A stretch of DNA of 64,000 nt, taken from NCBI RefSeq assembly GCF_001278035.1, contig NZ_CP009452.1, positions 4,125,501 through 4,189,500 of the forward strand, read 5' to 3'. Positions 1,924 through 57,496 of the stretch are shown in pieces. Under the pieces are notes generated by a model that ran no database searches, was not told the origin of the DNA, and was given only the letters and a program-made list of their open reading frames with translations. This stretch comes from Sphingopyxis sp. 113P3. GTDB lineage: Bacteria; Pseudomonadota; Alphaproteobacteria; Sphingomonadales; Sphingomonadaceae. The stretch's first letter is position 1. Each line of letters begins with the position of its first letter. A program made the position numbers and the translations under genes.

Positions 1924-2832
1924 ATGAACGAGCTTATCCAGATTGGCCCGATCAGCCCGCTGCGCCAGCGGCTGATCGACGATATGACCATGCGCCGCTT
2001 CTCGAAGGAGACGCAACGCAACTATCTTCGCGACGTCGGGCGGTTCGCGACCTGGCTCGGGCGCTCGCCGCATACCGCGAGCGCCGAGGATATCCGGCAG
2101 TTCCAGATCGAGCAGCAACAGGCGGGCGTCCCCGCACCAACGATGAACAGCATCGTCGGCGCGCTGAGGTTCTTCTTCACGCATACCCTCGATCGCCCCG
2201 ATATCGCGCGTAAGCTGATCCGCACCAGGCAGGTTCGCAAGATCCCGGTCGTTCTGACCATGGCCGAGGTGAAGCGGCTGCTCGATGCCACGCGCTGCCT
2301 CAAGCATCAGGCTGCGCTGTCGGTCGCCTATGGCGCGGGGCTGCGCGTCGCCGAGGTATCGGCGCTGAAGGTCACCGATATCGACAGCAAGCGGATGCTG
2401 CTGCGGATCGAGCGCGGCAAGGGCGAGCGGTACCGCAACGCGATGCTGCCCGAAGGCCTGCTCCTGCTGCTGCGCGACTGGTGGCGCGCCGGACGACAGC
2501 AGGGCGTGCTGTTTCCCGAAGGCTGGCTCTTCCCCGGACAGAGCGCCTCGGTCCCGATCAGCACCCGCCAGCTCTACCGGGTTGTCGTCGAAGCCGCGGA
2601 GGCCGCCGATATCGACAAGCGCGTCGGACCGCACACCTTGCGCCACAGCTTCGCCACCCACCTGCTCGAGGATGGCGTCGATATCCGCGTCATCCAGGCG
2701 CTGCTCGGTCACGCCAAGCTAAACACCACCGCCTTCTACACGCAGGTTGCCACCAAGACCGTTCGCTCGATCGTCAGCCCGCTCGACAGGCTCGCGCTCG
2801 CATCGCCGAGCGAAGAGGCGCCCGACGGCTGA
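1924..2832 (+). CDS. Tyrosine recombinase of the IS91-type element
   Basis: A 302-residue phage-integrase-family protein. It has an N-terminal SAM-like core-binding domain (residues about 15-100, with RNYLRDVGRFATWLGRS) and a C-terminal catalytic domain. Visible catalytic residues are the Arg in AYGAGLRVAEVSAL, the HTLRHSFATH box and the Tyr nucleophile in NTTAFYTQV after LLGHAK. Such recombinases often accompany IS91 transposases, where their contribution is unclear. The ATG at 1924 follows an AGAGGAG-like ribosome site. The gene is complete and probably cotranscribed with the transposase. Confidence 0.88.
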   Translation: MNELIQIGPISPLRQRLIDDMTMRRFSKETQRNYLRDVGRFATWLGRSPHTASAEDIRQFQIEQQQAGVPAPTMNSIVGALRFFFTHTLDRPDIARKLIRTRQVRKIPVVLTMAEVKRLLDATRCLKHQAALSVAYGAGLRVAEVSALKVTDIDSKRMLLRIERGKGERYRNAMLPEGLLLLLRDWWRAGRQQGVLFPEGWLFPGQSASVPISTRQLYRVVVEAAEAADIDKRVGPHTLRHSFATHLLEDGVDIRVIQALLGHAKLNTTAFYTQVATKTVRSIVSPLDRLALASPSEEAPDG

Positions 2833-2837
2833 GGCCG

Positions 2838-4028
2838 ATGCGCGCCTCACTCGAGGTTGCCGACATCTTCCGCGATGCTGGACCTGCCTATCGCGCTGCC
2901 CATGCCGGGCATCTGAGCCTGCACCAGCTCAAGATCATGTCGGCGATCGAACATTGCCGCACCGCCGCGCTCGGCGGGCACGTCGAAGCCTGTCCCGACT
3001 GCGGGCACTGGCGGATCGCCTATAACAGCTGCCGCAACCGCCACTGCCCTAAGTGCCAGGGCGTCGCGGCGCGCAGCTGGCTCGAGGCCCGCGAGGCTGA
3101 TCTGCTCCCGGTCGGCTATTTCCATGTCGTGTTCACCCTGCCTGCCGAGGTCGCCGCGATCGCCTATTACAACAAGGCGCTCGTCTATGACCTGCTGTTC
3201 AAGGCGGCGGCCGATACGATGCTGACCATCGCCGCCGACCCGAAGCACCTCGGCGCCCGGATCGGCATCACCGCCGTCCTCCATACCTGGGGCTCAGCGC
3301 TCACCCATCATCCCCACATCCACATGATCGTGCCGGGCGGCGGCATCTCGCGCGATGGGACACGCTGGATATCAGCACGCCCGGCCTTCCTGCTGCCGGT
3401 CCGCGTGCTCGGCGCCCTGTTCCGCCGGCTGTTCCTGACCCGCCTTCGCGCGCTGCACGATGCCGGCAAGCTCGCCTTCTTTGGCAGCATTACGCATCTC
3501 GCCGAACGACGCGCATTCCTGCGGCACCTCTCGCCGGTCCGCAAAAAGCGCTGGGTCGTTTATGCCAAGGCCCCGTTCGCCGGGCCCGAGGCCGTGCTCG
3601 CTTACCTCGCGCGCTACACCCATCGGGTCGCCATCTCGAACAGCCGGCTCCTCCGGTTCGACGAGGCCGGGGTCACTTTCCGCTACAAGGACTACCGCAA
3701 GGCCGGTGCCGGACGGCAGCAGGTCATGACCCTCGGCGCGGACGAGTTCATCCGCCGCTTCCTCCTCCACGCCCTGCCGCGCGGGTTCCACCGCATCCGT
3801 CACTATGGCCTGCTCGCCAGCGCACACCGCAAGGATCATCTCGAACGCGCCCGCCGCCTGCTCAACGTCGCACCTTCGCCGACCGAGGAACCGACCGACG
3901 ATGCAGAGCCCCGACCGACCTGTCCGTGCTGCGGCGGTACGATGATCATCATCGAGGTCTTCGAGCGCCGCTATCAGCCTCGCGCGCCGCCCCAGCCGGC
4001 GGCCTCATCCGAGACACCTGCGCCGTGA
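2838..4028 (+). CDS. IS91-family transposase (HUH, zinc-binding N-terminus)
   Basis: A 396-residue transposase. Residues about 40-75 carry a Cys-rich zinc-binding region (EACPDCGHW... CRNRHCPKCQG). The HUH motif appears as HHPHIHMI near residue 157, and the catalytic Tyr lies in AVLAYLARYTHRVAIS. A second pair, CPCCGG, sits near the C-terminus. The family nicks one strand and transfers it by a rolling-circle-like mechanism. The ATG at 2838 is preferred because homologous sequence begins there; the longer open frame overlaps the recombinase gene. It appears intact, so the element could be active. Confidence 0.9.
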   Translation: MRASLEVADIFRDAGPAYRAAHAGHLSLHQLKIMSAIEHCRTAALGGHVEACPDCGHWRIAYNSCRNRHCPKCQGVAARSWLEAREADLLPVGYFHVVFTLPAEVAAIAYYNKALVYDLLFKAAADTMLTIAADPKHLGARIGITAVLHTWGSALTHHPHIHMIVPGGGISRDGTRWISARPAFLLPVRVLGALFRRLFLTRLRALHDAGKLAFFGSITHLAERRAFLRHLSPVRKKRWVVYAKAPFAGPEAVLAYLARYTHRVAISNSRLLRFDEAGVTFRYKDYRKAGAGRQQVMTLGADEFIRRFLLHALPRGFHRIRHYGLLASAHRKDHLERARRLLNVAPSPTEEPTDDAEPRPTCPCCGGTMIIIEVFERRYQPRAPPQPAASSETPAP

Positions 4029-4420: not shown

Positions 4421-5047
4421 CTAGGCCCCGTCGGGCCGGGAGTCGACGAGCCGCATGAAGGTCTCATCCGCTTTCGGCGGGGACAGCATCGGCTTCCTGC
4501 GGCCGGAGAAGCGGTCAGGCTCGCGCTCTTCACCCGCCTGAGTGCGGTGCAGGAATATCTGGCAGATCGGCATGCCGGGATAGATTTCCAAAGGGACCTC
4601 GCCGACATTGGCAAGCTCGAGGGTCAGGCAACCGGAAAACTGCGGATGGATGCCAGCCGCCGTTTCGATCACCAGACCGTGGCGGCCCAGCGAGGATTTT
4701 CCGGTGACATAGCCCGACAGGCTCGCAGGCAAGCGCAGCCATTCGAGCGTCACTCCCAGCACGAAACGTCCGGGGTGCAGAACATAGTTCGACCCGAAGG
4801 GCACAAAATGTTGCTTGGTTCGCGACGTTTCCGATGGTTCGTCAGAGTCGCGCGGAATGCGGCCGACGAGTGAGACTGACGGCGTGCGGGTTTGCTTGAA
4901 CGAACGAAACCACCGGCCGAGGCGCAAATCAATCGAGGTTTCACCCTTGCGAAGGAGCTCGTCGCGCTCAGGCCAGGGCACGACGGTCAGCCGCTCCTCT
5001 TTGGTCTGATGTTCAAGAGCCCCGACGATCTCGGCAGCGCTAAGCAT
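4421..5047 (-). CDS. dCTP-deaminase-like protein
   Basis: A 208-residue protein of the dCTP deaminase/dUTPase trimeric fold. TSIDLRLG (residues 38-44) matches the early beta-strand signature, GKSSLGRHGL (117-125) the phosphate-binding motif, and HPQFSGCLTLELANVG (134-149) the active-site region, with Glu144 at the place of the deaminase catalytic Glu. Housekeeping Dcd makes dUTP from dCTP for dTMP synthesis. Dcd relatives in defence islands instead deplete dCTP during phage infection, and this one sits in an accessory operon with a regulator and proteases. It starts inside the end of the upstream gene (ATGCTTAG overlap, 5040-5047), so it is translationally coupled. The defence role is inference. 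Confidence 0.8.
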   Translation of the reverse strand: MLSAAEIVGALEHQTKEERLTVVPWPERDELLRKGETSIDLRLGRWFRSFKQTRTPSVSLVGRIPRDSDEPSETSRTKQHFVPFGSNYVLHPGRFVLGVTLEWLRLPASLSGYVTGKSSLGRHGLVIETAAGIHPQFSGCLTLELANVGEVPLEIYPGMPICQIFLHRTQAGEEREPDRFSGRRKPMLSPPKADETFMRLVDSRPDGA

Positions 5048-6290
5048 GGGCTTCGACCCTCAGCTTGAATTCGGACACTTCGACCGACTTGAGCATCAGC
5101 TCGTTCAGGATCTTGTATTCGGCAATGTCCTGATCGAGCGACAGACCGCCACGCTCGCGCAGCAGGAGCCAGCCCGCGGTCACGATTTCAGGCAAGGTTG
5201 CACCCTCGCCATCCGGAACATGCTGTCGCAGCGATGCCAGCACGCGATCGGTTGCATCGGCCGTCGGCGGAGTGATGCCGTGATCTGCCAGAATATTGAA
5301 CGTGATCGCGCGCAGGGCCGGATAGATTTTTGCAACCGCCGCATCGGCAAGCCTGATCACCGCACCGTCGGCGAACTTCAGCGGGATCGAGTCCCCCCAA
5401 GCCTCGAAAAGATCGGCTTCCGGAGCGATCCCTAGCTTTTCCGCCGCCTCGATGAGATAGCGCACCCGATCGAGACTCGACGGATAATAAGCGGAACGCA
5501 TGCCCCATCCCGGTGCGAGAAAGTATTCATAGGCGTAGAGAAAGGACCGGCCGAAAATGAACAGGCCGAATAGGTCGCAGAAGATTTCTTCGAGCTGCTT
5601 GATAGCTGACCGCAGCACCGCGTCGCGCAGCTTCGCGAGCGCGACGCCGTCAACGCCGAGCTCGTTGGAAACTAAACTTGTTTCGGCAGGCATATCGTCG
5701 AGCGTCTGGGCGATCGCAGCCACTAGATCCGCCATGAGCTGGTCCTTGAGCTGCTTGCTCCGCCACGCCGAGTGACCGATCTCATGGCCAGCGAGAGGAA
5801 CGATCAGGACATTGTCCGATTCCGGTGCCGGACCACCGACGAGCGCGAAGCCGGGCAGCCAGTCGAGGGTCATAGGGTAAGTGAAGGGGACGAACTTCCA
5901 TTCGGATGACATGATCAAGCGTGCGTCAGGGCTGACCGCCGTTTCGACGAGGCGCTTGAGCGGAAAGTGCATCTCGAACGCGTTGCGCACGTTCGTAGAG
6001 CGCAAAATGAAGCCGAGGATATCGGTGTATCGCGATACCATGAGGCTGGTTTGCGCACATGCCTCGTTGACGCTAGCCTCGCTCGCTTCAGGCGTCAACC
6101 GCTCCAGCACTTCGCGAAGCTCGAGCGAATATCCCTTGATGAAAGTTAGGGCATCCTTGCCGTCCAAATGGGCGAAATCGGATGTACCCAACTCCGCGAT
6201 CTGATCGATGAAGGCCCTCAGTCTACGACGGGCGGATGCCAGCCGAAGTGTCTTCGCTGAGGGGAGACCGCTCGTGGATGTCAAAGCCAT
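5040..6290 (-). CDS. Putative HExxH zinc metalloprotease
   Basis: A 416-residue soluble protein with HEIGH at residues 169-173 and LEEIFCDLFGL at 233-243. The second segment supplies a Glu ligand followed four residues later by Asp, the ExxxD arrangement of gluzincin peptidases. The regions before and after are mostly helical and match no family I recognise. There is no signal peptide, so it should act in the cytosol. It overlaps both neighbours: its start lies inside the end of the upstream small gene and its end overlaps the dCTP-deaminase-like gene. A GGGAGA site precedes ATG 6290. Substrate and specificity are unknown. Confidence 0.6.
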   Translation of the reverse strand: MALTSTSGLPSAKTLRLASARRRLRAFIDQIAELGTSDFAHLDGKDALTFIKGYSLELREVLERLTPEASEASVNEACAQTSLMVSRYTDILGFILRSTNVRNAFEMHFPLKRLVETAVSPDARLIMSSEWKFVPFTYPMTLDWLPGFALVGGPAPESDNVLIVPLAGHEIGHSAWRSKQLKDQLMADLVAAIAQTLDDMPAETSLVSNELGVDGVALAKLRDAVLRSAIKQLEEIFCDLFGLFIFGRSFLYAYEYFLAPGWGMRSAYYPSSLDRVRYLIEAAEKLGIAPEADLFEAWGDSIPLKFADGAVIRLADAAVAKIYPALRAITFNILADHGITPPTADATDRVLASLRQHVPDGEGATLPEIVTAGWLLLRERGGLSLDQDIAEYKILNELMLKSVEVSEFKLRVEAHA

Positions 6291-6681
6291 CTTCTCCCGC
6301 CAGTTCCTGGATCAGCTCTTGATGCAGCGCTATGCAGACCGGCAGGAGCGATGCGGCTGCATCGACTTGGCCTTGGGCGACCGCGCTCAGCTGCTGGCTG
6401 ACCGTCTTCATATATTCCTGGATATTCTCGACTTCGCCGTCGGGTGCGCTCGAGGCCATGCGGTACAGTCGCTCGAACGACTCATAATAGCCGGGTTCGA
6501 CGAAGCGGAACTGGAGGGTGCAGGCGCTCGGCTCCGAATTCTGTCGGAGTGCGGTCGCGAGGTTGGTGAAGACGTCGGGGTTGCTGTCCAGCCCGGCATT
6601 CATCCGCTCAAGCTCGACGATCGATCGCAGGGCCAGATTGGAGAGACTATATTTCGAAAAGGATACAAGGCTTTGCTGCAT
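6223..6681 (-). CDS. Unknown protein in the deaminase/protease operon
   Basis: About 152 residues from ATG 6681, beginning MQQSLVSFSKYSLSNL. I do not recognise a family. It is predominantly helical, has no signal peptide, membrane segment or clear metal motif, and ends in a charged tail. Alternative starts exist at ATG 6720 and GTG 6735; 6681 is chosen because the sequence from there looks best folded. Its last 68 bases overlap the start of the HExxH protein in another frame, suggesting coupled expression and perhaps a physical partnership, which is inference. Confidence 0.5.
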   Translation of the reverse strand: MQQSLVSFSKYSLSNLALRSIVELERMNAGLDSNPDVFTNLATALRQNSEPSACTLQFRFVEPGYYESFERLYRMASSAPDGEVENIQEYMKTVSQQLSAVAQGQVDAAASLLPVCIALHQELIQELAGEDGFDIHERSPLSEDTSAGIRPS

Positions 6682-6762
6682 GACCGAGGAGCCCCTTTCT
6701 CCAGTTGGTCGGCCTACCATGCTCTGATCTCGCACGACCGTTCTTACAGCATAGTAAATGAC

Positions 6763-7113
6763 TCAAACTGAGTCAAATTGACTTAGATCCATACTGACGG
6801 CTAGCCAGCGTTCGGCAAGTTCCGCGCGGAATATTATTGCCGCGGCGCGGCTTGGTTTCAGATCACGCGCGATCGCATGCGCCTTGAACGCTGCCTTGGT
6901 TTCGGGATCGGACTGATGCGCGACGATTTTCTTCTTTCCTTGGCCGCCAAGGTCGCGGTCGTGGAGCGGTCGAAGCGCGGCAAGCCGCTCGCGTCTGAGT
7001 TCCCGGACAATCAACAGATTGGCAAGCGCCGTAACATCGAGCCGAAGTTCAGCGGCATATTGCTGGAACGCGCTCGCCTCATCGTCCGAAAGATAGCCGA
7101 GAATCTGTGCCAT
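6763..7113 (-). CDS. Small unknown protein downstream of the ImmA-type protease
   Basis: A 116-residue basic protein starting three bases after the upstream protease ends. It has two helical halves joined by a GGQGKKK linker. The first half (AELRLDVTALANLLIVRELRR) has a spacing reminiscent of ribbon-helix-helix DNA-binding proteins, but this is weak. No catalytic motif is seen. Position makes it a member of the XRE-ImmA operon. An 81-base gap separates it from the next gene, the longest in the operon. Confidence 0.5.
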   Translation of the reverse strand: MAQILGYLSDDEASAFQQYAAELRLDVTALANLLIVRELRRERLAALRPLHDRDLGGQGKKKIVAHQSDPETKAAFKAHAIARDLKPSRAAAIIFRAELAERWLAVSMDLSQFDSV

Positions 7114-7116
7114 GGC

Positions 7117-8040
7117 CTAGAAGAGCGAGAGGCTGTGCTGGGCCGGGAGATAGACCCGGCGCTGAAGCGTGGCAACGGAGTGCAGAAGCACGAGCGTCTG
7201 GTGGCGGCTTCGAAAGGATTCCGCGATGAATTCCTGACGTTCGCCATTGGCGTCGAGAAAGCTCACCGTCCGCGGGCGTGTCATCCGGCGATCGGGGATC
7301 AGCCGGGCGAAGGCTTCCCGCGAGCGGATTTCCCGCGGCCAGGCCATCGCGGGAAAGCGCGCTTCGAACGACGGCGACGCGACGACGCGACGCAGGCTGC
7401 TGACCGATTGCCCGAAGGCTTCCTCGATCGGCGGATTGAAGATCAGGACCGCGCAGACGCGGTCGCTCGCCATCACATATCGCCGGGCCGTGGCATAGAC
7501 CGAGGCGCCATAACGCTTCGCAAGCTGCAGCGGCGCCGCCATGCCGAACGTCAGGTCGCCTGCTTCCTCGGCGAAGATGTCCATCTGGAACAGGACTTCG
7601 GAGGCGAAGACATTGGCCTCGCGTTCGAACTGCGCCTTGATGAACGGATCGAGCGTCATCCGGCAATCTTCGAACAGGCCGAAGATGCTCTGCCATTCGA
7701 GCAGGGCGTGGCCGCCCTCGTGGAGTTTCAGGAAGGGAAGCTTGGCGTCCGGCGTTTCGGGGTCGATAAAGGCGATTCGCGACCGTGGGTCGAAAACACC
7801 CCATGCTTTCGACAGCGCAGTGAGCAGCGCCTTGCCGGCATTTTCCGCCTTGCGGCGAAGTTTCGCGAGATAGCCCTCGTCGATCGCCAGCGGGACCATT
7901 TCGATCCGGGCTGCGGCCATGATGTCGTCGACGGGCGTGGGAAAGATGCCGAGAGCGCCGCCGTCCCGCAAGGCGCGGTCGGCGGCGGCCCGGATGGCGA
8001 CGAGCTGTTCGTGCGAAACGCTACAGTCGTCTGCCAGCAT
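7117..8040 (-). CDS. ImmA/IrrE-family metallopeptidase
   Basis: A 307-residue cytosolic protein with HEGGH at 107-111 and a third ligand candidate in FEREANVFASEVL (138-150), the ImmA/IrrE signature (DUF955). In ICEBs1 and Deinococcus such proteases cleave a partner XRE repressor to release a stress or mobile-element programme. The XRE gene lies immediately upstream and overlaps by one base (TAATG at 8038-8042), fitting a repressor-protease pair. The C-terminal 120 residues form an extra domain that could sense a signal. The cleavage of the neighbouring XRE is inference. Confidence 0.85.
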   Translation of the reverse strand: MLADDCSVSHEQLVAIRAAADRALRDGGALGIFPTPVDDIMAAARIEMVPLAIDEGYLAKLRRKAENAGKALLTALSKAWGVFDPRSRIAFIDPETPDAKLPFLKLHEGGHALLEWQSIFGLFEDCRMTLDPFIKAQFEREANVFASEVLFQMDIFAEEAGDLTFGMAAPLQLAKRYGASVYATARRYVMASDRVCAVLIFNPPIEEAFGQSVSSLRRVVASPSFEARFPAMAWPREIRSREAFARLIPDRRMTRPRTVSFLDANGERQEFIAESFRSRHQTLVLLHSVATLQRRVYLPAQHSLSLF

Positions 8041-8402
8041 TATTTCTTCTGACGTCGCAGAAAGCCGAGGAAAGCCAGAAGCTGGTCTTCCTCGTCGGAG
8101 GTCAATTCACCCAGTACGGACGTGGCCATTCTGTTGAGCGGTTCTTCCGCCTCGGTCAGGAACCCTGCCCGCTTCATGATTTCGTGATAATCGAGCTTAT
8201 AGGCATTCGAAAGCCGGTGCAGCATCATCGCCGACGGCTTGTCGATATTCCCATTCTCCAACTGGCTGAGATAGCCGTTCGAGACGGTGCCGTCCGTCAA
8301 GCGCTCGACTTCCCGGAGCGAGAGGCCGCGCGATTGGCGCACTTTCTTCAGAAACCCCCCGAGATCAGTTCCCTCCTCATCGATTGTCCTTTCATCGGTC
8401 AT
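8040..8402 (-). CDS. XRE-family transcriptional regulator
   Basis: A 120-residue protein with a helix-turn-helix domain at about residues 15-70 (LKKVRQSRGLSLREVERLT, then SNGYLSQLENG) and a helical C-terminal extension (EEDQLLAFLGFLRRQKK). It is first in a six-gene leftward operon and faces a rightward ubiquitin-like operon across a 152-base control region with two inverted repeats, so it probably represses itself and possibly the divergent operon. The overlap with the ImmA-type gene suggests it is that protease's target. The family is clear; the target sites are inferred. Confidence 0.88.
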   Translation of the reverse strand: MTDERTIDEEGTDLGGFLKKVRQSRGLSLREVERLTDGTVSNGYLSQLENGNIDKPSAMMLHRLSNAYKLDYHEIMKRAGFLTEAEEPLNRMATSVLGELTSDEEDQLLAFLGFLRRQKK

Positions 8403-8413
8403 AAATCACCCAT

Positions 8414-8512
8414 CCTAGTTTTTGGGGACCAAGAAACTAGGCGCAGGTGCTAAATTTGTCAAGCACATCTTAGCCCCCTTGACAACTTAGCACTGCTTCG
8501 CCAATTTAGCAC
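8414..8512. promoter_or_regulatory. Divergent control region with two inverted repeats
   Basis: CCTAGTTT (8414-8421) pairs with AAACTAGG (8434-8441), a perfect 8-bp dyad just upstream of the XRE gene. GTGCTAA (8447-8453) plus GTCAAG (8458-8463) pairs with CTTGAC (8478-8483) plus TTAGCAC (8487-8493), and a further TTAGCAC lies at 8506-8512. A TTGACA box (8479-8484) sits inside the second dyad and could be a -35 for the rightward operon. These are good candidates for XRE operators. Confidence 0.65.
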
Positions 8513-8554
8513 CACAGCCGCCGCTGTTGGCCGGCTGAGTAGAAGGATCTGTTT

Positions 8555-8968
8555 ATGGATACCCACAACCACCCCCGCGATCGCAAGGACGACGATCCCG
8601 AGATCGTGATCATCAACAACCGCACCGGCGCGGATGTCGACGTCGAGATCAAGCACGAGAAGGGTCACGACATCGTCATCGTCGATATCGTCGATGTCGA
8701 GGAATGCGGCCGCGCCAACCAGCCGCCGCCGCACGCGCACCGCTACAAGGTGAAGATCGACCACATCTACCACGTGTTCGATCGCCGCTTCGTCACCGGC
8801 CGCGAAATCCTCGTCGCGGGCGGCAAGACGCCGATCGAGAAGTACGAACTCGAGAAGCGTCTCCACGGCGGCCACTATGTCTCGATCGGCGTCGACGAAA
8901 AGGTCGACCTCGGCGAGTGCGGCATCGAGGTCTTCGAGACCTTCCCGCTCGACGAGACCGAGGGCTGA
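8555..8968 (+). CDS. Ubiquitin-like protein (multiubiquitin family)
   Basis: A 137-residue protein. The second half (residues about 62-137, RYKVKIDHIYHVFDRRFVTG onward) matches the bacterial multiubiquitin domain: a beta-grasp fold with VTGREILVAGG and a late VDLGECGIEVF. The N-terminal part is acidic and may be a degenerate second Ubl unit or a flexible leader. It ends in ETEG rather than a classic Gly-Gly. It is first in an operon encoding E2-like, JAB-E1 and DUF6527-like proteins, so it is probably the conjugated modifier. The family call is confident; targets are unknown. Confidence 0.8.
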   Translation: MDTHNHPRDRKDDDPEIVIINNRTGADVDVEIKHEKGHDIVIVDIVDVEECGRANQPPPHAHRYKVKIDHIYHVFDRRFVTGREILVAGGKTPIEKYELEKRLHGGHYVSIGVDEKVDLGECGIEVFETFPLDETEG

Positions 8969-8973
8969 TCGCA

Positions 8974-9357
8974 ATGCGCCGGGAGTTCAACCTCGGTCCT
9001 GACGACATCCGGGTGCTCGAAACACTCGGATGTCCTTGGGAAACCATCGCCCAGGGCGGGGCGCGGTGGCTGCTCCTCCGGCAGCACCCCATCCCCGAAG
9101 GCTATAACGTCGCGCAGGCGGACGTCGCGATCCGTCTCGATGCTTATCCCGCCGGCATGATCGACATGGTCTATTTCAGCCCGCCGCTGAGCCGCGCCGA
9201 CGGCAAGGTCATCAACAACCTCAGCGCGCTTTCGATCGACAACCGCTCGTTCCAGCAATGGTCGCGTCACTACCCGTGGCGGCAGGGGGTCGACTCGCTC
9301 TGCACCCACCTCCGCCGCGTTCGCGCCTGGCTGAAGAACGAATTCAAGAAGCGTTAG
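8974..9357 (+). CDS. E2-like ubiquitin-conjugating protein (prokaryotic E2 family E)
   Basis: A 127-residue protein starting five bases after the Ubl gene. It has the short UBC-like layout of prokaryotic E2 proteins: a beta sheet region with WLLLRQHPIPEGYN and YPAGMIDMVYFSPPL, then SFQQWSRHYPW and a late Cys110 in GVDSLCTHLRRVRAWL, the likely catalytic residue. In these operons the E2 accepts the Ubl from the E1 and passes it to a target. Context is decisive for this short protein. Whether it forms a thioester or helps another bond type is not visible. Confidence 0.78.
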   Translation: MRREFNLGPDDIRVLETLGCPWETIAQGGARWLLLRQHPIPEGYNVAQADVAIRLDAYPAGMIDMVYFSPPLSRADGKVINNLSALSIDNRSFQQWSRHYPWRQGVDSLCTHLRRVRAWLKNEFKKR

Positions 9358-9371
9358 GAAGGATAAGGGTC

Positions 9372-10748
9372 ATGCACATCTTGCGCCTGAACCAGTCGCA
9401 GCACGCGACGCTCGCAAGCCACCTCTTCGACGGCACCGGCCTCGAAGCGATCGCCGTCGGTCTGTGCGGCCGCTCCATGATCGAGGGCCGCAGCGTCTTC
9501 GTCGTTCACCGGATTGTTGAAATCCCGTCGGACGAATGCCTGCGGGCGCCGGACCGCATCACCTGGCCGACGTGCCGCCTCAAGGCGCTGCTCGCCGAGG
9601 CGCGAGCAAACAATCTGGCGATCCTCAAGATCCACTCGCATCAGGGCGGTTACCGGCAGTTCTCCTCGCAGGACGATGCCTCGGACCTCGACCTCTTCAA
9701 CGCCGTGGGCCTCAAGGTTGTCGGCGAACATGTGAGCGCGATCATGCTGCCCGATGGGTCAATCTTCGGCCGCCGCGTCGGCATCGGCGGACCGCGCGGC
9801 ATGCTCGACCGCGTGTCGGTCGTCGGCGACGATATCCTCATCTGGCCGGGCCGCCCGAGCCTGACGCGCGCCGACTTCGACGTTCGTCACCGGCAGATGT
9901 TCGGCGATCACACGACCGAAAGCCTCGGCTCGCTGAGCGTCGGGGTCGTCGGCGTGTCCGGCAGCGGCAGCCCGACGGTCGAGATGCTCGTCCGTCTCGG
10001 CGTCCGCCGGGTCGTGCTGATCGAGCCCGACCATGTCGAGGCCAAGAATCTCAACCGCATCTACGGCGCGACCCGCCGTCACGCGGCCGCCGAGGTCAAC
10101 AAGGCGCGGATGATGAAGAACCATATCGACCGCATCGGCCTCGGCACGAAAGTGGAAATCGTCGAAGGATTCGCCGACAGCCCCGAGGCGATCGCCCGCC
10201 TCGCGACGTGCGATGTCCTGTTCGGCTGCATGGATTCGATCGAGGGCCGCGACACGCTGAACCGCATCGCGACCTTCTATACGCTGCCCTATTTCGATCT
10301 CGGCGTGCGCATCGATGCCGATGGCAGCGGCGGGGTGAACGCGGTGTCGGGGGTTGTGCACTATATTCAGCCGGGCGGCTCGAGCCTGCGCTCGCGCGGC
10401 GTCTATTCGGAGGCCGAACTGCACGCCGATGTGCTGCGCCGCACCGATCCCGATTTCTACGAGGATCAGGTCCGCCGCGGCTATGTGCGCGGCATCGTCG
10501 TCGATCGCCCCGCGGTGATCAGCATCAACACCATGGTCGCATCTATGGCCGTGAACGAGCTGCTCGCCCGCCTCCATCCGTTCCGCACTCGTCCGAACGG
10601 CGATTTCGCCATCCAGCGCATCTCGATGTCGCACGGCCGCATCATCCTGCGCCCCGACGGCGAACCCGACGCCAATCTCGCCAGCCACGTCGGGCGGGGA
10701 ACGACCAACCCGCCGCTGCTGCTGCCCCGCCTCGGCCGCCCGTCGTGA
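9372..10748 (+). CDS. JAB peptidase-E1 (ThiF-like) fusion protein
   Basis: 458 residues with two domains. The N-terminal JAB/MPN domain (about 10-145) has a complete JAMM motif, H88-x-H90...S98..D101 in HSHQGGYRQFSSQDD, plus an upstream Glu, so it could trim or remove the Ubl. The C-terminal domain (about 185-440) is an E1/ThiF adenylation fold with VGVVGVSGSGS (nucleotide loop), LIEPDHVEAKNLNR and the CMDSIEGRD segment; Cys280 and Cys286 are thioester candidates. Fusion of activation and deconjugation activities is known in bacterial Ubl operons. ATG 9372 is chosen; a longer frame overlaps the E2 gene. Confidence 0.85.
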   Translation: MHILRLNQSQHATLASHLFDGTGLEAIAVGLCGRSMIEGRSVFVVHRIVEIPSDECLRAPDRITWPTCRLKALLAEARANNLAILKIHSHQGGYRQFSSQDDASDLDLFNAVGLKVVGEHVSAIMLPDGSIFGRRVGIGGPRGMLDRVSVVGDDILIWPGRPSLTRADFDVRHRQMFGDHTTESLGSLSVGVVGVSGSGSPTVEMLVRLGVRRVVLIEPDHVEAKNLNRIYGATRRHAAAEVNKARMMKNHIDRIGLGTKVEIVEGFADSPEAIARLATCDVLFGCMDSIEGRDTLNRIATFYTLPYFDLGVRIDADGSGGVNAVSGVVHYIQPGGSSLRSRGVYSEAELHADVLRRTDPDFYEDQVRRGYVRGIVVDRPAVISINTMVASMAVNELLARLHPFRTRPNGDFAIQRISMSHGRIILRPDGEPDANLASHVGRGTTNPPLLLPRLGRPS

Positions 10749-11131
10749 TACCCGGACGCAAACTGCTCTGCCGGCTCCTCGCAGCATTCGGCGCGGTCCG
10801 CTGGAAGATCGGCGGCTGGCGCCGCCCCGCGATCGTGAAACGGGAGGTCGGCGACGTGCCGTCCCGGCTCGCGCGCAACATCCTCTATGTCCGCCGCGGC
10901 GCCGATGGTCCGGCCTTCGGTTACCTCGCCTGCCCTTGCGGCTGCGGCGAAACGCTGCACCTTCGTTTTCTCGGCAAGCGCTTTCCGCGTTGGACGCTGG
11001 AGACTGACGGAAAAGGACGCGTGTCGCTTCGCCCGTCGGTGTGGCGAACGACTGGGTGTGCGAGCCACTTCTTCGTAACCGCCGGGCAAGTTCGCTGGTG
11101 TGCGCCGGGATCCTACCGGGCGTTCGACTAA
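10745..11131 (+). CDS. DUF6527-like protein of the ubiquitin-like operon
   Basis: A 128-residue protein with GTG start overlapping the E1 stop (GTGA, 10745-10748). It has a tight Cys cluster, CPCGCGE (63-69), and a conserved-looking SVWRTTGCASHFFV (98-111) followed by VRWC. This matches my memory of DUF6527, the usual last gene of bacterial Ubl-E2-E1 operons, where a peptidase role has been proposed. The Cys residues suggest metal binding and Ser107-His108 are candidate catalytic residues; both are inference. The coupling argues for a stoichiometric role in the pathway. Confidence 0.7.
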   Translation: MIPGRKLLCRLLAAFGAVRWKIGGWRRPAIVKREVGDVPSRLARNILYVRRGADGPAFGYLACPCGCGETLHLRFLGKRFPRWTLETDGKGRVSLRPSVWRTTGCASHFFVTAGQVRWCAPGSYRAFD

Positions 11132-11236
11132 AAACGGGCGCGTTGCTGACGGGGCTTCGAAATGCTCGAACGGCAGGTTTTGGGCAGCGACTTCGCGGCT
11201 TGCTACGAGCTGGATCAGGTGCAAACCGGCCGCATT

Positions 11237-11268
11237 CCTATTATAATATTTACCTATTATAATATTTA
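11237..11268. repeat. Perfect 16-bp AT-rich tandem repeat
   Basis: CCTATTATAATATTTA is repeated exactly twice (11237-11252, 11253-11268), and each copy contains the palindrome TATTATAATA. The stretch is strikingly AT-rich against its high-GC surroundings. It spans the stop of the leftward outer-membrane factor gene and follows the Ubl operon, so it could act as a boundary, a protein-binding site or a recombination scar. Confidence 0.8.
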
Positions 11269-12711
11269 ATGGCCGAATGTACGCCCTCCGGTACAATTTG
11301 GACTGCCCACCCCTTCACAAACCTCCCAGCCCCCGCCGAGAGCGCGGTGGATTTCGACCACAGACAGGAGATGGTCTGTGCGCGCCGCGACGAGCGTGGC
11401 TTCGGCTTCGTAGAGGCTGCGTTCGGCATCGAGAACGTCCAGATATTGGCCTTCACCCTCGCGAAAGCGAACCGCCGCCATCCGCGCCGCCTCGCGGCTG
11501 GCGCCGACCTGCTGGTCGCGCATCGCAAGACCGGTCCGGATTGCACCATAGGCCGTCAGCGCGTCCTCGACATCGCGAAGGGCGATCAGGACGGTCCGGT
11601 GGTAATCGATCAGCGCCGCATCGGTGCGAGCATCGGCGACGCGGACTTGCGCGCGCAGACGCGGCATGTCGAACACACCCCAATCGAGGCTGGGGCCGCC
11701 AGCAAAAGCGACCGCACCGCCCGTGAACAGCGATTCAAACCCGCCAGCGAGGAGCCCAATGAAGCCGGACAGGCGTACCGTCGGAAACAGGTCGGCCTCG
11801 GCGACGCCACGCCGTGCGGTGGCGGCGGCGAGTGTGCGCTCGGCGGCGGCGATATCCGGCCGCCGCCGCAACAGATCGGCGGGGGCACCGACGCCGATCT
11901 GCGCAATATGCGGCAGGCTGGTTGTTGCAACGGCGGGACCGACAAAGTTTTGCGGCGTCTGGCCGAGTAGCACGGCAAGGGCGTGGCGCGCAGTGCCGAT
12001 GCGTTGTTCGATCCCGGGCAGCGTCGCCTCGACCGCGGACAGCGCGGCCTCTGCGCGAACGACGTCAAAGCGTGCGCCAGCGCCAGCGCGTTCCAGCTTG
12101 CGCGTGACGTCGAGCGAGCGTCGCTGGGTTTCGATCTGGCGGTGCGCGATGGCAAGCGCGGCCTCGCTTCCGCGCAATTCGAAATAATGGCCGGCGACAT
12201 CGGCGGTGACCGCTGCGCGGGCGGCGCGTAGCAGCGCTTCGGCGCCGCCGACCTCGGCCTCGGCGGCTTCGACCCCGCGGCGGACACGACCGAACAGGTC
12301 GACCTCCCAGCTAGCTTCTGCCCCGAGGCGCAATGCATCCCCTTCACGCGGCTGACCGCCCGGACGCTCAGCATCGGCCAGACGGCGACGCTGATAGGAG
12401 GCATCGACACCGCCGCCGGGAAGCCGTCCCGCACGCGATACGCCGGCGAGTGCGCGCGCCTCGTCGAGCCGCGCGACGGCGAGCCGCGCGTCGAGGTTCG
12501 CGGCGAGCGCCTCGGCGATCAAACTATCGAGCGCCGGATCGCCAAACTGGTGCCACCAGGCGGCCTCGGCAGACGTGCCGCCTATGCCCACCGGCTGTGC
12601 GGCATAGGCGCCGGGTGCCTCGATCGACGGCGGAACATAATTGGAGCCAGCGGTGGCGCACCCGGCAAGGCCAAGAAGAACGGCGGGCGAAAGTTTGGCG
12701 ATCAATGTCAT
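11266..12711 (-). CDS. RND efflux outer-membrane factor (NodT/OprM type)
   Basis: A 481-residue TolC-family lipoprotein: signal peptide with lipobox LAGCA near residue 15-19, then two repeats of long periplasmic helices (EALAANLDARLAVARLDEAR and AVRFREGEGQYLDVLDAERS are typical). It forms the outer-membrane channel of a tripartite pump. Its start overlaps the RND permease stop (ATGA, 12708-12711), so it is the last gene of the adaptor-permease-channel operon. The extreme C-terminus (GVGSPNCTGGRTFGH) is unusual and ends within the tandem repeat, so the tail may have been altered. Confidence 0.88.
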   Translation of the reverse strand: MTLIAKLSPAVLLGLAGCATAGSNYVPPSIEAPGAYAAQPVGIGGTSAEAAWWHQFGDPALDSLIAEALAANLDARLAVARLDEARALAGVSRAGRLPGGGVDASYQRRRLADAERPGGQPREGDALRLGAEASWEVDLFGRVRRGVEAAEAEVGGAEALLRAARAAVTADVAGHYFELRGSEAALAIAHRQIETQRRSLDVTRKLERAGAGARFDVVRAEAALSAVEATLPGIEQRIGTARHALAVLLGQTPQNFVGPAVATTSLPHIAQIGVGAPADLLRRRPDIAAAERTLAAATARRGVAEADLFPTVRLSGFIGLLAGGFESLFTGGAVAFAGGPSLDWGVFDMPRLRAQVRVADARTDAALIDYHRTVLIALRDVEDALTAYGAIRTGLAMRDQQVGASREAARMAAVRFREGEGQYLDVLDAERSLYEAEATLVAARTDHLLSVVEIHRALGGGWEVCEGVGSPNCTGGRTFGH

Positions 12712-15700
12712 GGGGTCAATTCCTGCGGCTTGGTGTCCGGGTTTGAAGAGCGCCGCGCCGCGCGCCGGAGAACGACCTTGCGGATCACGACGTAGAAGAG
12801 CGGAGTCAGGAAGAGGCCGAAGAGTGTCACCCCGAGCATGCCGGCGAACACCGCAATGCCCATGGCCTGCCGCATTTCAGCGCCCGCCCCCGTGGCGATC
12901 GCCAGCGGAACCGCGCCGACAATGAAGGCGATCGACGTCATCAGGATCGGACGCAGCCTCAATCGGCAGGCCTCGAGCGCCGCGGCGAGCGGATCGAGAC
13001 CTTCATGTTCCTGCGCGCGCGCAAACTCGACGATCAGGATCGCATTTTTCGCGGCCAGCCCCACCAGCACCACAAAGGCGATCTGCGTGAAGATGTTGAT
13101 GTCGCCGCCGGTCAGCCAGACCCCGACAAGCGCGCTGAGCAGACACATGGGCACGATGAGCAGGACCGCAAGCGGCAGCGTCCAGCTGTTATATTGCGCC
13201 GCGAGGATCAGGAAGGCGAGCAGCACCGCGATCGGGAAGACGTAGAGGGCGGCGTTGCCCGCGGTCTTTTCCTGATAAGTGAGGTCGGTCCACTCGAATG
13301 TCATGCCCTCTGGCAGTTCGGCGCGCGCGATCCGTTCCATTGCTGCAACCGCCTGCCCCGAGCTGAAGCCCGGCGCGGGGCCGCCGCTAATATCGGCCGA
13401 TGGAAAGCCGTTATAGTGGATGATGCGGTCCGGTCCGGCGCCCGGAGAGGTGGAGACCAGCGTCGCGAGCGGGACCATATCGCCCTGCGCGTTGCGGAGC
13501 TGAAGCCGCCCGACTGCATCGGGCTGGGCCCGCGCGTCGGCTTCGGCCTGTGCATAGACCTGATAGGTTCGGCCGAAGCGGTTGAAGTCGTTGACGTAGA
13601 GCGAGCCGAGATAGACCTGCATCGTCTCGAACACATCGGTCATCGCGACGCCTTGGGCCGCGGCCTTGGTCCGGTCGACATCGACCGAAAGTTCGGGCGA
13701 GGCAACATTATAGCTGGTCATCAGCCCGGCGAGCGCGGGTTCCTTGGCGGCGGCAGCCATCACCTTGGCGTTGGCTGCCGCTAGCGCCTCGTAGCCCGCG
13801 CCGGAACGATCCTCGATCTGCATCTTGAACCCGCCGGTGGCGCCGAGGCCGGGAACCGGCGGCGGCGGGAATATGCCGACGAAGCCGTCGGGGACTGCCG
13901 CATATTTGCCCTGCAGCCGCCCGGCGATTGCGCCGGCCGCCATGTCCGGCGACGTGCGCTCGGAAAAAGGATCGAGCATCACGAACATGACGGCGGCGTT
14001 GGGCACGTTGACGAAGCCGTTGATCGACAGGCCCGGAAAAGCGACGACGCTTTCGACGCCGGACTCGGCCAGTGCGATCTTCGAGACCTGTTCGGCCACC
14101 GCCTGGGTACGATCGAGCGACGCGCCGTTCGGCAACTGCACGATGCCGACGAGATAATATTTGTCCTGCGCGGGCACGAAACCGGCGGGCAGCTTGTCAA
14201 AGGCGAACCAGGTCAGGCCGAGCAACCCGGCATAGGTCAGTCCCGCGACCGCACCCCGCCGGATGACGCGCTGCACGCCACCGACATAGGCGAGCGAGCC
14301 GCGATCGAAGGCGCGATTGAACGGCCGGAACAGCCAACCAAAGCCTTTGTCGATCGCACGTTGGAGGCTGTCGCGCGGCGCATCATGACGCTTGAGCAGT
14401 ATCGCGGCGAGTGCGGGCGACAGCGTCAGCGAGTTCACCGCCGACAAGATGGTCGAGATCGCGACGGTGAGCGCGAACTGGCGATAAAATTCGCCCTGCA
14501 ACCCGCCCAGAAAGGCTGTGGGAATGAAGACCGCGGCGAGAACCGAGGTGATCGCGATGATCGGGCCGGTGACCTCCGCCATCGCTTTACGCGCGGCCTC
14601 GCGCGGAGATTCGCCAAGCCCGATATGACGCTCGACATTCTCGACAACGACAATCGCGTCATCGACGACGATGCCGATCGAGAGCACCAGCCCGAACAGC
14701 GATAGCGTGTTCAGCGAAAACCGAACACATACATGACCGCCAATGTCCCGACCAACGAGACGGGCACCGCGACAAGCGGAATGATCGACGCGCGCCAGGT
14801 CTGGAGGAAGAGGATCACAACGAGGACGACGAGCAGGGTCGCCTCGATCAGCGTGACGATCACGCTTTCGATCGAAGCCTTGACAAAGATCGTCGGATCA
14901 TAAGCGATGCGATGAACCAGCCCGTCGGGAAACTCGCCCGAGAGGCGGTCCATCGTCGCCCGGACCTCGGCCGCGGTGTCGAGCGCGTTGGCGCCGGGGC
15001 TTTGCAATATCTGCAGCGCGATCGCGGGTTCGCCGTCGAGCAGCGAACGCAGCGCATAATCATTGGCGCCCATTTCGATCCGGGCGACCTCACCGAGCCG
15101 GGTGAGCTGGCCGTCGGCACCAGTCTTGACGACAATCGCAGCAAATTCTTCCTCGGTCGCAAGGCGGCCCTTCACGTCGAGCGCGACCTGTTGCGCGGCG
15201 GCGGGGTTCGGCTGCCGCCCGACGCTGCCCGCGGCGACTTCGACATTCTGCGCGCGGATCGCGGCGACGATATCGCTCGCGGTCAACCCGCGCGAAGCGA
15301 TCCGCGCCGGGTCGAGCCAGACGCGCATCGAATATTCACCGGCACCCCACACGACCACGTCGGCGATGCCGGGGATGCGCGCGATTTCGTCGCGGACCTG
15401 AAGCAGCGCATAGTTGGAGATGAAGAGCGGGTCATAGCGCTTCGATGGCGACAGAAGATGCACCACCATCAGCGCGTCGGGTGCAACCTTCTGTGTGGTG
15501 ACGCCGAGCCGCTGCACCGTCTCGGGCAGTCGTGGCAGTGCGCGCGATACGCGGTTCTGGACCTGAACCTGCGCGATGTCGGGATCGATCCCTTGCGCGA
15601 AGGTGACCGTGAGCGTCATCCGGCCGTCGGTGGCGGCCTGGCTCGACATATAGAGCATGCCCTCGACGCCGTTGACCGCCTGTTCGATCGGACTGGCGAC

Positions 15701-15886
15701 GGTTTCGGCGATAACCTCGGGCGAGGCGCCCGGATAGGCCGCGGCAACGGTCACCGTCGGCGGCGCGACCGCCGGATATTCGCTGAGCGGTAGCCGGAGG
15801 AGCGCGAGCAGCCCGGCAATCAGCAGGAGCACCGACAGCACGATCGCGAAGATCGGCCGGTCGATGAAGAAGCGGGGGAAGTTCAT
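12708..15886 (-). pseudogene. HAE1-type RND permease, split by a frameshift
   Basis: The normal protein would be about 1,050 residues. The N-terminal 391 residues (15886-14711) start MNFPRFFIDRPIFAIVLSVL and stop just after MYVFGF. The remaining 659 residues resume in another frame with LSIGIVVDDAIVVVENVER, the conserved TM4 segment with its proton-relay Asp pair. Adding one T to the four-base run at 14717-14720 (A-run on the plus strand) restores FGFSLNTLSLFGLVLSIG, the family consensus. So a one-base deletion separates the halves. It is either a true inactivating or phase-variable change or a sequencing error. Adaptor and channel genes are intact. Confidence 0.85.
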
Positions 15887-17049
15887 CGTGCCGGCTCCCG
15901 CTGGACGCTGGTTTTCTGCATGCCATTGCCGCGCGGCATCGAGACGATCCTGGGTTTGACCGCCATGCCGGGGCCAGCCAGCCCCTTGACGACGACGCGG
16001 TCGCCGGGCCGCAAGCCCGTCTCGACGACGCGCAGGCCATCGACGATGGGGCCGAGCGTCACGGGCCGATATTCGGTCATATTCTTTGCGCCCAGCACGA
16101 GGACAAAGCGCCGCCCCTGTTCGACACCGATCGCGATGTCGCTGACGAGGATCGCGGACCGGGCCTTGTCGGTCGCGACATCGACTTCGGCGAACAGGCC
16201 GGGCGCCAGACGGCCACCCGGATTGGGCAGGACCGCGCGCGCGCGGATCGTCCCCGTCGCACGGTCGAGACGGTTGCCGATGAAGTCCAGCCGCGCCATT
16301 CGGGTGCTGCCGTCTTCGAGGCGGACGCCGACCTTGGCCTCGGCGCCCTGACCGCGGCGGTCGGCGAGCGAGCGAAGATAGGTCGCCTCGTCGACGTCGA
16401 ATTCGACGTGGAGCGGATCGACCGAGACGATGGTGGTGAGCGGCGTCGCCGTCTCGCCGCCGGCAACCAGATTGCCGCGGGTGACGAGAATCTGGCCGAC
16501 CCGGCCCGCGATGGGCGCTTCGACGCCGGCATAGCGAAGGTCGAGCGCCGCGAGCCGTTCGGCCGCACGCGCCGACGCAACCTGCGCTTCACGTTCACGC
16601 AAGGTCGCGGTCGTCACGTCCGAACGCTCGCGCCCGGCGACACCTTCGGCGACGAGCCGTCGGGCGCGCACATCCTCGGCCTGCGCGAGTCCCAGCCGCG
16701 CCTCGGCTTCACGCGTCGCCGCGCGGGCTGCGGCGTGCCGCGCCGCGAAGGGCGCATTATCGAGGCGAAAAAGAATCTGCCCGCGCCGGACAATCTGCCC
16801 CTCGGGAACGCTGACGTCGGCAATATAGCCCGAGACGCGCGGTTTGAGTTCGACCGTCTCGACCGCAGTCAGGCGTCCGTTATAGGTGGAGCGCGGCACA
16901 TGGTCCTGCACGACGACTGATGCCGCCAGAACCATCGGCGGCCCCGGCGCAGCGGCCTGCTCGCCGCCTTCCGGCCCGCGCACCCAAAGCACCACGAGCC
17001 CCGTCGCCAATATCGCGCCCAGCGCCGCGGCGACCCTCGATTTTCGCAT
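15883..17049 (-). CDS. RND efflux periplasmic adaptor (membrane fusion protein)
   Basis: A 388-residue HlyD/AcrA-type adaptor with an N-terminal membrane anchor (residues about 8-24). A lipoyl half-motif (VSGYIADVSVPEGQIVRRG) precedes an Ala/Arg/Glu-rich helical hairpin, followed by the second lipoyl half (VEAPIAGRVGQ) and a beta-barrel domain. It links an inner-membrane RND permease to the outer-membrane channel. Its stop overlaps the permease start by four bases. A MerR-type promoter with the same core as the copA promoter lies upstream, so copper-type control is likely. Confidence 0.9.
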   Translation of the reverse strand: MRKSRVAAALGAILATGLVVLWVRGPEGGEQAAAPGPPMVLAASVVVQDHVPRSTYNGRLTAVETVELKPRVSGYIADVSVPEGQIVRRGQILFRLDNAPFAARHAAARAATREAEARLGLAQAEDVRARRLVAEGVAGRERSDVTTATLREREAQVASARAAERLAALDLRYAGVEAPIAGRVGQILVTRGNLVAGGETATPLTTIVSVDPLHVEFDVDEATYLRSLADRRGQGAEAKVGVRLEDGSTRMARLDFIGNRLDRATGTIRARAVLPNPGGRLAPGLFAEVDVATDKARSAILVSDIAIGVEQGRRFVLVLGAKNMTEYRPVTLGPIVDGLRVVETGLRPGDRVVVKGLAGPGMAVKPRIVSMPRGNGMQKTSVQREPAR

Positions 17050-17104
17050 CTCAACCTCCGAATCCGTGCTCGCCGATCCGGATGGATGGCGAGCTCATAT
17101 TTCG

Positions 17105-17135
17105 GGGGTGCGGTTTTCCATCGTTGGAGGGTCAA
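17105..17135 (-). promoter_or_regulatory. MerR/CueR-type promoter of the RND operon
   Basis: On the minus strand TTGACC (17135-17130) is followed by a 19-base spacer, CTCCAACGATGGAAAACCG, then CACCCC. The long spacer and central AACGATGG match the copA and copZ promoters in this window. The -10 is poor, as expected for an activator-dependent promoter. Confidence 0.6.
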
Positions 17136-17320
17136 GAGATTTTCTTCGTCGGCGTCGAATGCGCATGAACCCGTAGAAGACACCGCGCCTGTTGGTAGGC
17201 GGAGCTCTGCTGCAACAGTAATCCGGCGTGCGGCGACCGCGTTGGCCAAGGCTATGTCCCGCGAAGAATCAGGAAAAGCTCCTCCGCATACGGAAGGGCC
17301 AAATGATCCCGAGGCCAGGG

Positions 17321-17815
17321 CTAGTGCGTGCGGTTCGACGAACCCGCGGCATGGCGCCGGGCGGATTGTCCGCCGGACCTGCCGAAGCGCCGGGGTTCGC
17401 GCGGTTGGAGGCGCGGCATCGCATCCCCCTCTTCCGCCAGCCCCTCGATGATCGGGCAATCGGGCCTGTCGTCACCGTGGCAATGATTGGCCAGCGTCTC
17501 AAGCGTCCGCACCATGGCTTCGATCTCGGCCATTTTTTCCTTGAGCCGCTCGATATGTTCGAGCGCGAAAGCCTTGACGTCGGCGCTGGCGCGGCTTCGG
17601 TCGGACCAGAGACCCAGCAGCTCGCCGATTTGCTCCACGGTAAAGCCGAGATCGCGCGCGCGCCGAATGAAGCGCAGGCGGTGCACGTCGGCGTCGTCAT
17701 AGTCGCGGTAACCCGAGTCCTGACGCGCAGCCTTGGGGATGAGACCCGTCTGTTCGTAATAGCGGATCATCTTTGGAGAGACGCCCGATATTTTCGCGGC
17801 GCGGCCGATGTTCAT
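17321..17815 (-). CDS. cueR: CueR-type copper-responsive MerR-family regulator
   Basis: A 164-residue MerR-family protein: winged helix-turn-helix at residues 1-70 ([20 protein letters not shown]), a dimerisation helix, then a metal loop [13 protein letters not shown] around residues 112-124 with the two Cys typical of monovalent-metal sensors such as CueR. The tail is longer than in E. coli CueR and rich in Arg and Gly. Its start overlaps the copA stop (ATGA, 17812-17815). Three promoters with 19-base spacers (RND operon, copA, copZ) are its probable targets. Confidence 0.85.
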
Positions 17816-20346: not shown

Positions 20347-20378
20347 GACAATTTCTCCGGATTTGCTCATTTGACCGG

Positions 20379-20409
20379 ATTGTGCAGTTTCCAACGATGG
20401 GAAGGTCAA
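20379..20409 (-). promoter_or_regulatory. CueR-type promoter of copA-cueR
   Basis: On the minus strand TTGACC (20409-20404), a 19-base spacer TTCCCATCGTTGGAAACTG with a CTTCC/GGAAA dyad, and CACAAT (20384-20379). The 19-base spacing is the hallmark of MerR-family activated promoters. Confidence 0.8.
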
Positions 20410-20435
20410 GGGGAGAAAAAAGGGCGCGCCGGGAC

Positions 20436-20466
20436 TTGACCTTGCTACGATGGCAAGCCCCATCTT
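20436..20466 (+). promoter_or_regulatory. CueR-type promoter of the copper chaperone gene
   Basis: TTGACC (20436-20441), a 19-base spacer TTGCTACGATGGCAAGCCC with a CTTGC/GCAAG dyad beginning at the last C of the -35, then CATCTT (20461-20466). It sits 28 bases upstream of the chaperone start and mirrors the copA promoter in the opposite direction. Confidence 0.75.
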
Positions 20467-30875: not shown

Positions 30876-30970
30876 TCTCCATGACGGGCCGCCGCGAGAC
30901 ACTCTCCCGGCTTTCAAGCCCGTCACGAAAACCCGGCCCTCCTCTCCCTTTGGGGCCGCCGCAGGCGGAC

Positions 30971-39073: not shown

Positions 39074-39174
39074 TTAATTCACTGCTCCACTAAGGCGGTC
39101 GACCAACTGGCGTCATCGCTCCCCCACAGGCCGTGTGCCCAAGCATCCGGTCACAACCCAGGGGGAGTATGATG

Positions 39175-41700: not shown

Positions 41701-41710
41701 GGAGGGCGGC

Positions 41711-52135: not shown

Positions 52136-52140
52136 CCGCC

Positions 52141-55377: not shown

Positions 55378-55474
55378 GGCTCGACGATCATCGCACCAGC
55401 ACGCCTAGCGTGCGGGCTGAGTGGCAGACGGCTTTGCCGTCCGCCCCTTGGGCCACCGAAGCGGCGCGCCGGCC

Positions 55475-56576: not shown

Positions 56577-56625
56577 GGCCTCCCACCATTCACTCCCCCC
56601 AAGCCGAAGAAGAAAGGATGCCATC

Positions 56626-56928: not shown

Positions 56929-56929
56929 G

Positions 56930-57442: not shown

Positions 57443-57496
57443 CAGCGAGCCGCACGGTCCTCACCACAGAAGCGCGCCTCGCGAAGGAACCACGTC

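Follow-up and report, generated by a model that had tools for sequence, protein, structure and literature searches.

Depletion of dCTP is known as a defence, and the dCTP deaminases described in that role have another, zinc-dependent deaminase fold than the dCTP deaminase/trimeric dUTPase (Dcd) family. The CapH/CapP DNA-damage switch pairs an XRE repressor with an M78-type HExxH peptidase, encoded by overlapping genes at the promoter of immune-type operons, with cleavage of the repressor activated by single-stranded DNA, and Bub operons bring together multiubiquitin, E2, JAB-E1 and Cys/His metal-binding-type proteins. According to PMC13373217, 219 of 544 Bub operons adjoin CapW or CapH plus CapP, and protection against phage by Bub is not demonstrated; PMC1779556 sets out a group of operons encoding a predicted metal-binding protein of Cys/His type, and PMC13092281 places a dUTPase domain among predicted defence domains without validation. 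Here we describe a locus in which parts resembling these systems meet. It lies in a stretch of 64,000 nucleotides from Sphingopyxis sp. 113P3 (contig NZ_CP009452.1, positions 4,125,501 to 4,189,500; hereafter the window), where six leftward open reading frames (ORFs) encode a CapH/CapP-like pair, two small proteins, an HExxH protein with the motif HEIGH and a Dcd-like protein.

It is close to settled that the conserved unit is made of only the last three genes, which encode a helical protein of about 150 amino acids (aa), the HExxH protein and the Dcd-like protein. The co-occurrence of these genes in 36 non-redundant loci shows that their grouping is not due to chance, and we reject the explanation that they are chance neighbours. 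The small gene lies directly 5' of the HExxH gene in 35 of the 36 loci and the Dcd-like gene directly 3' of it in 34; the three misses are all contig ends (L013 and L031 for the Dcd-like gene and L018 for the small gene, with 191, 2 and 56 bases left). On Rhizobium plasmids and in one further genome, the small gene, the HEIGH gene and dcd stand without the other window genes. We tentatively read the three genes as an autonomous, horizontally moving cassette in which the protease is gated by its nucleotide-binding Dcd-like partner, a possibility we prefer without calling it probable. A role in stress or defence is likely, and the cassette has the look of a stress or anti-phage system not yet described. 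It unites a diverged Dcd subfamily with two protein families that Pfam does not cover, is conserved across phyla, phages and plasmids, and is compact enough for practical testing in laboratory strains.

The original prediction, made from the sequence of the window alone, took all six genes as one unit and said that its author knew no described system with this gene set. The first claim had to be given up: CapH is found in 5 of the 36 loci, CapP in 4, Bub-type genes in 4 and the gene for a 116-aa protein in 8, each being absent from most. Co-occurrence with the Dcd-like gene, expected for the HExxH protein and both small proteins, was borne out for the HExxH protein and the 170-aa-type small protein and failed for the 116-aa protein; the possibility that the genes do not occur together elsewhere is dismissed by the same 36 loci. 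The claim of novelty has stood so far. The literature searched held no description of the three-gene cassette (papers on Bub mechanism lay outside the search and may mention it), and PADLOC 2.0.0 returned no family at E ≤ 0.1 for the HEIGH, small, 116-aa and Dcd-like proteins of the window.

The 36 loci, which form the first branch of the cassette, comprise 28 of the 31 loci from a genome scan together with the window, L002, L004, L036, L037, L107, L108 and L112. The other sources were viral contigs (2 loci), same-family genomes (2 more) and a Dcd-based viral scan (1). L112 was reached through the Dcd family, so that its HExxH/Dcd pairing is by construction. Left out were duplicates of L002 (L003, L011, L012, L015) and of the window (L001/L126), loci inside L107/L108 (L071/L072), contigs of L036/L037 (L110/L111) and a weak HEIGH match of 88 residues (G598). 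Judged by record title, the hosts include alpha- and deltaproteobacterial groups, Planctomycetes, Verrucomicrobia, Kiritimatiellae, Bacteroidales and unassigned metagenome-assembled genomes. The cassette is rare: it was found in 2 of 385 genomes of the class (the window's own included), in 1 of 398 of the phylum (the window's own) and in 4 of 249 of the family, counting its own genome and one weak match later discarded. Because the genome scan depends on the presence of either of two short peptides, it misses more distant relatives.

A Dcd search of plasmids led to a second branch, in which shorter HExxH proteins are encoded beside Dcd-like genes in the same gene order as in the first. An HExxH query then gave 17 plasmid records, 15 of them with an adjacent dcd; of the remaining two, L118 has a fragmentary annotation without dcd and H60 was not taken in. 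The second branch is carried by plasmids of E. coli and Salmonella that also bear phage genes, by a matching viral contig, and by Bradyrhizobium, Agrobacterium, Shinella, Rhizobium and Emticicia (Bacteroidota), in the last of which the cassette sits inside a type I restriction-modification cluster. In E. coli it occurs in 8 of 5426 genomes, always on plasmids. A third form of the cassette was found in Bradyrhizobium quebecense. By profile comparison these HExxH proteins are distantly related to those of the first branch (hhalign 96.9%, E 1.7e-10; 92.4%, E 5.2e-7). As a separate observation, the second-branch cassettes on E. coli and Salmonella plasmids of about 90 kb with phage tail genes (L119, 6021-8013; L105, 2620-4612) are annotated only as hypothetical proteins plus dcd.

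For the HExxH protein of the window, no credible family was found in Pfam, PADLOC or NCBIfam. Its predicted structure has a mean confidence (pLDDT) of 88.7, and a putative metal site (H169, E170, H173, E235, D239) is identical in 27 of 27 first-branch members; the HELGH and Glu/Asp columns of all six second-branch members match that site. Like the M48 (Ste24-like) gluzincin peptidases, the protein has HExxH followed by ExxxD, and a structural comparison contained one Ste24 row. It differs from them in that every M48 match is below cut-off: Pfam M48 is listed for none of the 27 first-branch members and is a weak match in 4 of the 6 second-branch members (best E 0.01; L105 at 16.1 bits against a cut-off of 20.3). 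The invariance of the metal site suggests that the protein may itself be an effector, which alters the part of controller or helper that the original prediction had given it.

The Dcd-like protein of the window scores 108.8 bits, over the TIGR02274 equivalog cut-off of 92.8, and also matches PF22769. It keeps Ser118, Arg122 and Glu144, positions kept in 27 of 27 cassette members, and has His134 where ordinary Dcds have an acid. At this position, which precedes a P-x-W/F turn, all 29 ordinary Dcds checked (the best over-cut-off matches with a locus, from 58 genomes) have an acid, as against 0 of 40 examined cassette Dcds, which carry His or Gln (35 in a first comparison and 5 further, all His). 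Four plasmid Dcds without a cassette have Asp at the position, and a fifth (L125) gave no clear reading. A one-residue gap in the Dcd hairpin was rejected as a diagnostic, as ordinary Dcds vary there too. The cassette proteins are further set apart from the family by their HExxH partner and by the presence, in the genome of the window, of a separate ordinary dcd (C1:1717262). That second gene and the changed pocket residue led us to reject the Dcd-like gene as the only or an ordinary dcd, a possibility that the original prediction had left room for. Public records do annotate the gene as dcd, and it could in principle be an extra copy with a maturation protease, serving ordinary nucleotide metabolism; set against the separate dcd, the altered pocket and the rare, patchy spread, we regard this as very improbable.

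The Dcd-like protein could act as the effector by deaminating dCTP or a similar nucleotide, with the HExxH protein activating or restraining it by proteolysis. The profile score, the retained Ser, Arg and Glu and the known use of dCTP depletion in defence all speak for such a role, and the dCTP-depleting effector of the original prediction remains a rival reading. The loss of the acidic residue in all 40 examined members, however, makes simple dCTP depletion uncertain; the resemblance to described defence dCTP deaminases stops at the named activity and the defence-like setting, with no PADLOC match for any of the 27 Dcd-like members scanned; and depletion alone leaves the invariant protease site unexplained. 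We consider this account doubtful, and rank a nucleotide-gated protease above it because the Dcd acid is lost while the protease site never varies. Taken together, a metal site that never varies, a Dcd pocket retained for the most part and the strict pairing lead us to favour two coupled activities, and in the cassette a housekeeping nucleotide enzyme may have come to serve as a sensor or an effector.

Upstream of the core genes the window carries what appear to be two switches. A protease/XRE repressor switch, proposed in the original prediction, was upheld by PADLOC matches to capP and capH (Table 1); the HEGGH protein reaches 21.9 bits for Pfam M78, just under the cut-off of 22. As in described CapH/CapP systems, the two genes overlap and stand at the promoter of an immune-type, ubiquitination-like operon. 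The window pair differs in also heading a second, leftward operon, and CapH and CapP accompany only a minority of cassettes. The gap between capH and the multiubiquitin gene holds inverted repeats and the sequence GCTTGACAAATTTAGCAC; exact copies of its core, GCTTGANNAANTTAGC, are found in L005, L006 and L067. The presence of the core in L067, which has CapH/CapP and Bub-type genes without the cassette, fits a candidate CapH operator. The second switch would be the 116-aa protein. Its N and C halves align to each other (hhalign E 1.6e-6) and are RHH-like in our reading of their pattern; neither it nor the 170-aa protein has a credible family in Pfam, PADLOC or NCBIfam. The palindrome GACTCANNNTGAGTC lies at the 3' end of the 116-aa gene, before the small gene, in all 8 loci where the 116-aa gene is present and in none of the other loci examined. 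It is single in the 4.66-Mb genome, where its backwards control occurs 0 times. A tandem RHH-like protein and a locus-specific palindrome suggest a dedicated second switch. Both candidate operators were missed in the original prediction, as was the divergent Bub-type operon from 8555.

That operon (multiubiquitin, E2, JAB-ThiF and DUF6527-like genes, 8555-11131), which from its domain content we take to be Bub (bacterial ubiquitination-like), in the row 6c group of Iyer et al. 2006, matches over cut-off for its ubiquitin-like, E2 and E1 parts (PF14452, PF14462, PF00899) and below it for JAB (PF14464, 21.7 against 25). The DUF6527 assignment comes through relatives: a profile of the window protein with these matches DUF6527-annotated genes in L114, L115 and L116. 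Bub-type genes lie beside the cassette in the window, L005, L006 and L008, and the latter three keep the ten-gene arrangement of the window, with proteins about 41-70% identical to their window counterparts; in L008 two ORFs make up the E1, and the shorter of them has 39% identity. The divergent CapH/CapP-Bub layout is found in L067 as well. Unlike the window, Agrobacterium, Shinella and Rhizobium (L114, L115, L116) have the cassette directly 3' of the DUF6527 gene of a multiubiquitin operon, with an HTH gene and an ImmA/IrrE gene on the other side in L114 and L116.

Linkage in two layouts, divergent across CapH/CapP (4 of 36 loci) and directly 3' of DUF6527, could mean that the cassette is the execution arm of a Bub pathway, in which conjugation marks targets, the HExxH protease processes them and the Dcd-like protein regulates. 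In most loci, though, the Bub operon is a neighbour at best: within the stretch covered, Bub genes are missing from 32 of the 36 first-branch loci. No cassette was found in 11 other alphaproteobacterial multiubiquitin loci in the stretch examined, two of which end at contig ends; among these, L067 has CapH/CapP in the same divergent layout and L061 a CapH match only. Moreover, L115 and L116 are near-identical there, and in viral contig L122 an HExxH gene follows DUF6527 and a Dcd-like gene was not found. One switch controlling both operons is the simpler account of the linkage, and we judge an execution arm distinctly unlikely. The cassette gives Bub operons a testable partner. Beside another multiubiquitin operon (L062, 9918-10840), an XRE and M78-like peptidase pair recognized by eye was missed by the CapH/CapP profiles.

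Returning to the nucleotide-gated protease, we propose the following course of events. DNA damage or infection would activate CapP, which would cleave CapH, and the loss of CapH would derepress the Bub-type and leftward operons alike, with the 116-aa protein acting as a second brake at the palindrome. The small protein would keep the protease inactive until a nucleotide whose level or modification shifts in infection is bound by the Dcd-like protein, which would thereby gate the protease. The protease might then cut a host or phage protein and so stop growth or phage production. Read from sequence, constant order, tight linkage, intact metal-binding residues, an altered Dcd pocket, mobile or defence genes next to the loci examined and a locus-specific palindrome with a tandem RHH-like protein are the traits that this scheme draws on. 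In its most far-reaching form, a Dcd-fold sensor of abnormal or phage-altered nucleotides would license proteases of a new HExxH family that a small inhibitor restrains, with some lineages wired to ubiquitin-like conjugation under one DNA-damage switch; we find this form rather unlikely.

Several points weigh against this reading. Cassette Dcd-like proteins retain deaminase residues, so an enzymatic role is possible, and it is a proposal that the proteins form a complex, that the protease is gated and that the small protein inhibits it. Most cassettes lack CapH/CapP and Bub genes, and no relationship could be detected between the small proteins of one branch and those of the other. In favour of the unit, the three core proteins show correlated pairwise distances (r 0.86, 0.84 and 0.81 over 23-25 loci; 0 of 5000 permutations each), a correlation that takes no account of shared ancestry. 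A promoter-like sequence overlaps the palindrome in the window, and such matches are no commoner than chance would give (2 found against 1.5 expected in shuffles). Cassette neighbours were hand-picked for profiling and give no unbiased enrichment test, and several cassettes lie, by eye, among housekeeping-like genes.

Table 1. Features of the cassette locus and the adjoining operon (window positions).
Feature	Position	Strand	Evidence
CapH-like XRE repressor	8040-8402	-	PADLOC capH 5.1e-8; HTH-family profile matches
CapP-like peptidase (HEGGH)	7117-8040	-	PADLOC capP 1.4e-14
116-aa protein, two related, putatively RHH-like halves; candidate cassette repressor	6763-7113	-	
Small helical protein, core gene 1, 170-aa ORF	6223-6735	-	Relative upstream of HExxH gene elsewhere; helical model
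HExxH protease-like protein, core gene 2, 416 aa, HEIGH then ExxxD	5040-6290	-	Conserved family
Dcd-like protein, core gene 3, 208 aa	4421-5047	-	TIGR02274, PF22769
Palindrome TGACTCANNNTGAGTCA, candidate cassette operator	6759..6775	none	8/8 loci with 116-aa gene
Intergenic inverted and direct repeats, candidate CapH operator region	8414..8513	none	GCTTGACAAATTTAGCAC at 8447-8464
Multiubiquitin protein, Bub-type operon	8555..8968	+	PF14452 37.4 bits, cut-off 24.5
E2-like protein	8974..9357	+	PF14462 99.4 bits, read in ORF 8704-9357
JAB-E1 (ThiF) protein	9258..10748	+	PF00899 88.4 bits; PF14464 21.7 bits, below cut-off 25
DUF6527-like protein	10826..11131	+	Conserved part of ORF 9536-11131

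All six leftward ORFs were found at the positions originally given for them, and the description of most as overlapping or a few bases apart proved correct. The XRE and HEGGH genes have 1 base in common, 3 bases separate the HEGGH gene from the 116-aa gene and 27 the latter from the 170-aa gene, and the overlaps of the HEIGH gene with the 170-aa and Dcd-like genes are 68 and 8 bases. The true start of the 170-aa ORF is probably later. Just past the Dcd-like gene (1924-4028), a tyrosine-recombinase-like ORF (by eye) is followed by an IS91-type transposase (PF04986, PF14319), together a possible mobilising element.

Nineteen hand-picked proteins from around the cassettes were profiled, of which 3 matched nothing. 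The neighbours include type I and type III restriction-modification (L021, L033, L027), GmrSD (L020), TIR-WD40 (L024), a relaxase-type protein (L031), terminase and capsid (L036) and SIR2 (L114), surroundings that fit mobile defence cargo as far as a hand-picked set goes. In L007 two caspase-like proteins (PADLOC caspase; 10749-12941, 15211-17439) stand beside a cassette where CapH is present and CapP and Bub genes were not found. Location on plasmids, on phage contigs and beside a relaxase, overlapping genes and a candidate dedicated operator would also suit a selfish addiction or superinfection module for element maintenance, with the protease as presumed toxin, the small protein as antitoxin and the Dcd-like protein as regulator. 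Such a module is unlikely given the many chromosomal copies among housekeeping genes and a set of three genes rather than two. In L019 (275-4912) the cassette lies, by eye, between the apparent halves of a transketolase gene pair.

Elsewhere in the window, RND efflux, heavy-metal P-type ATPase and ParB-like genes recognized by eye (12708-20463, 28815-30980 and 51844-60028) suggest a plasmid-derived region. Groups of TonB receptor, S9-like peptidase and asparagine-synthetase-like genes, also read by eye, occur in the window (39133-45794) and near the cassette in L005 (14060-21239) and resemble a lasso-peptide cluster.

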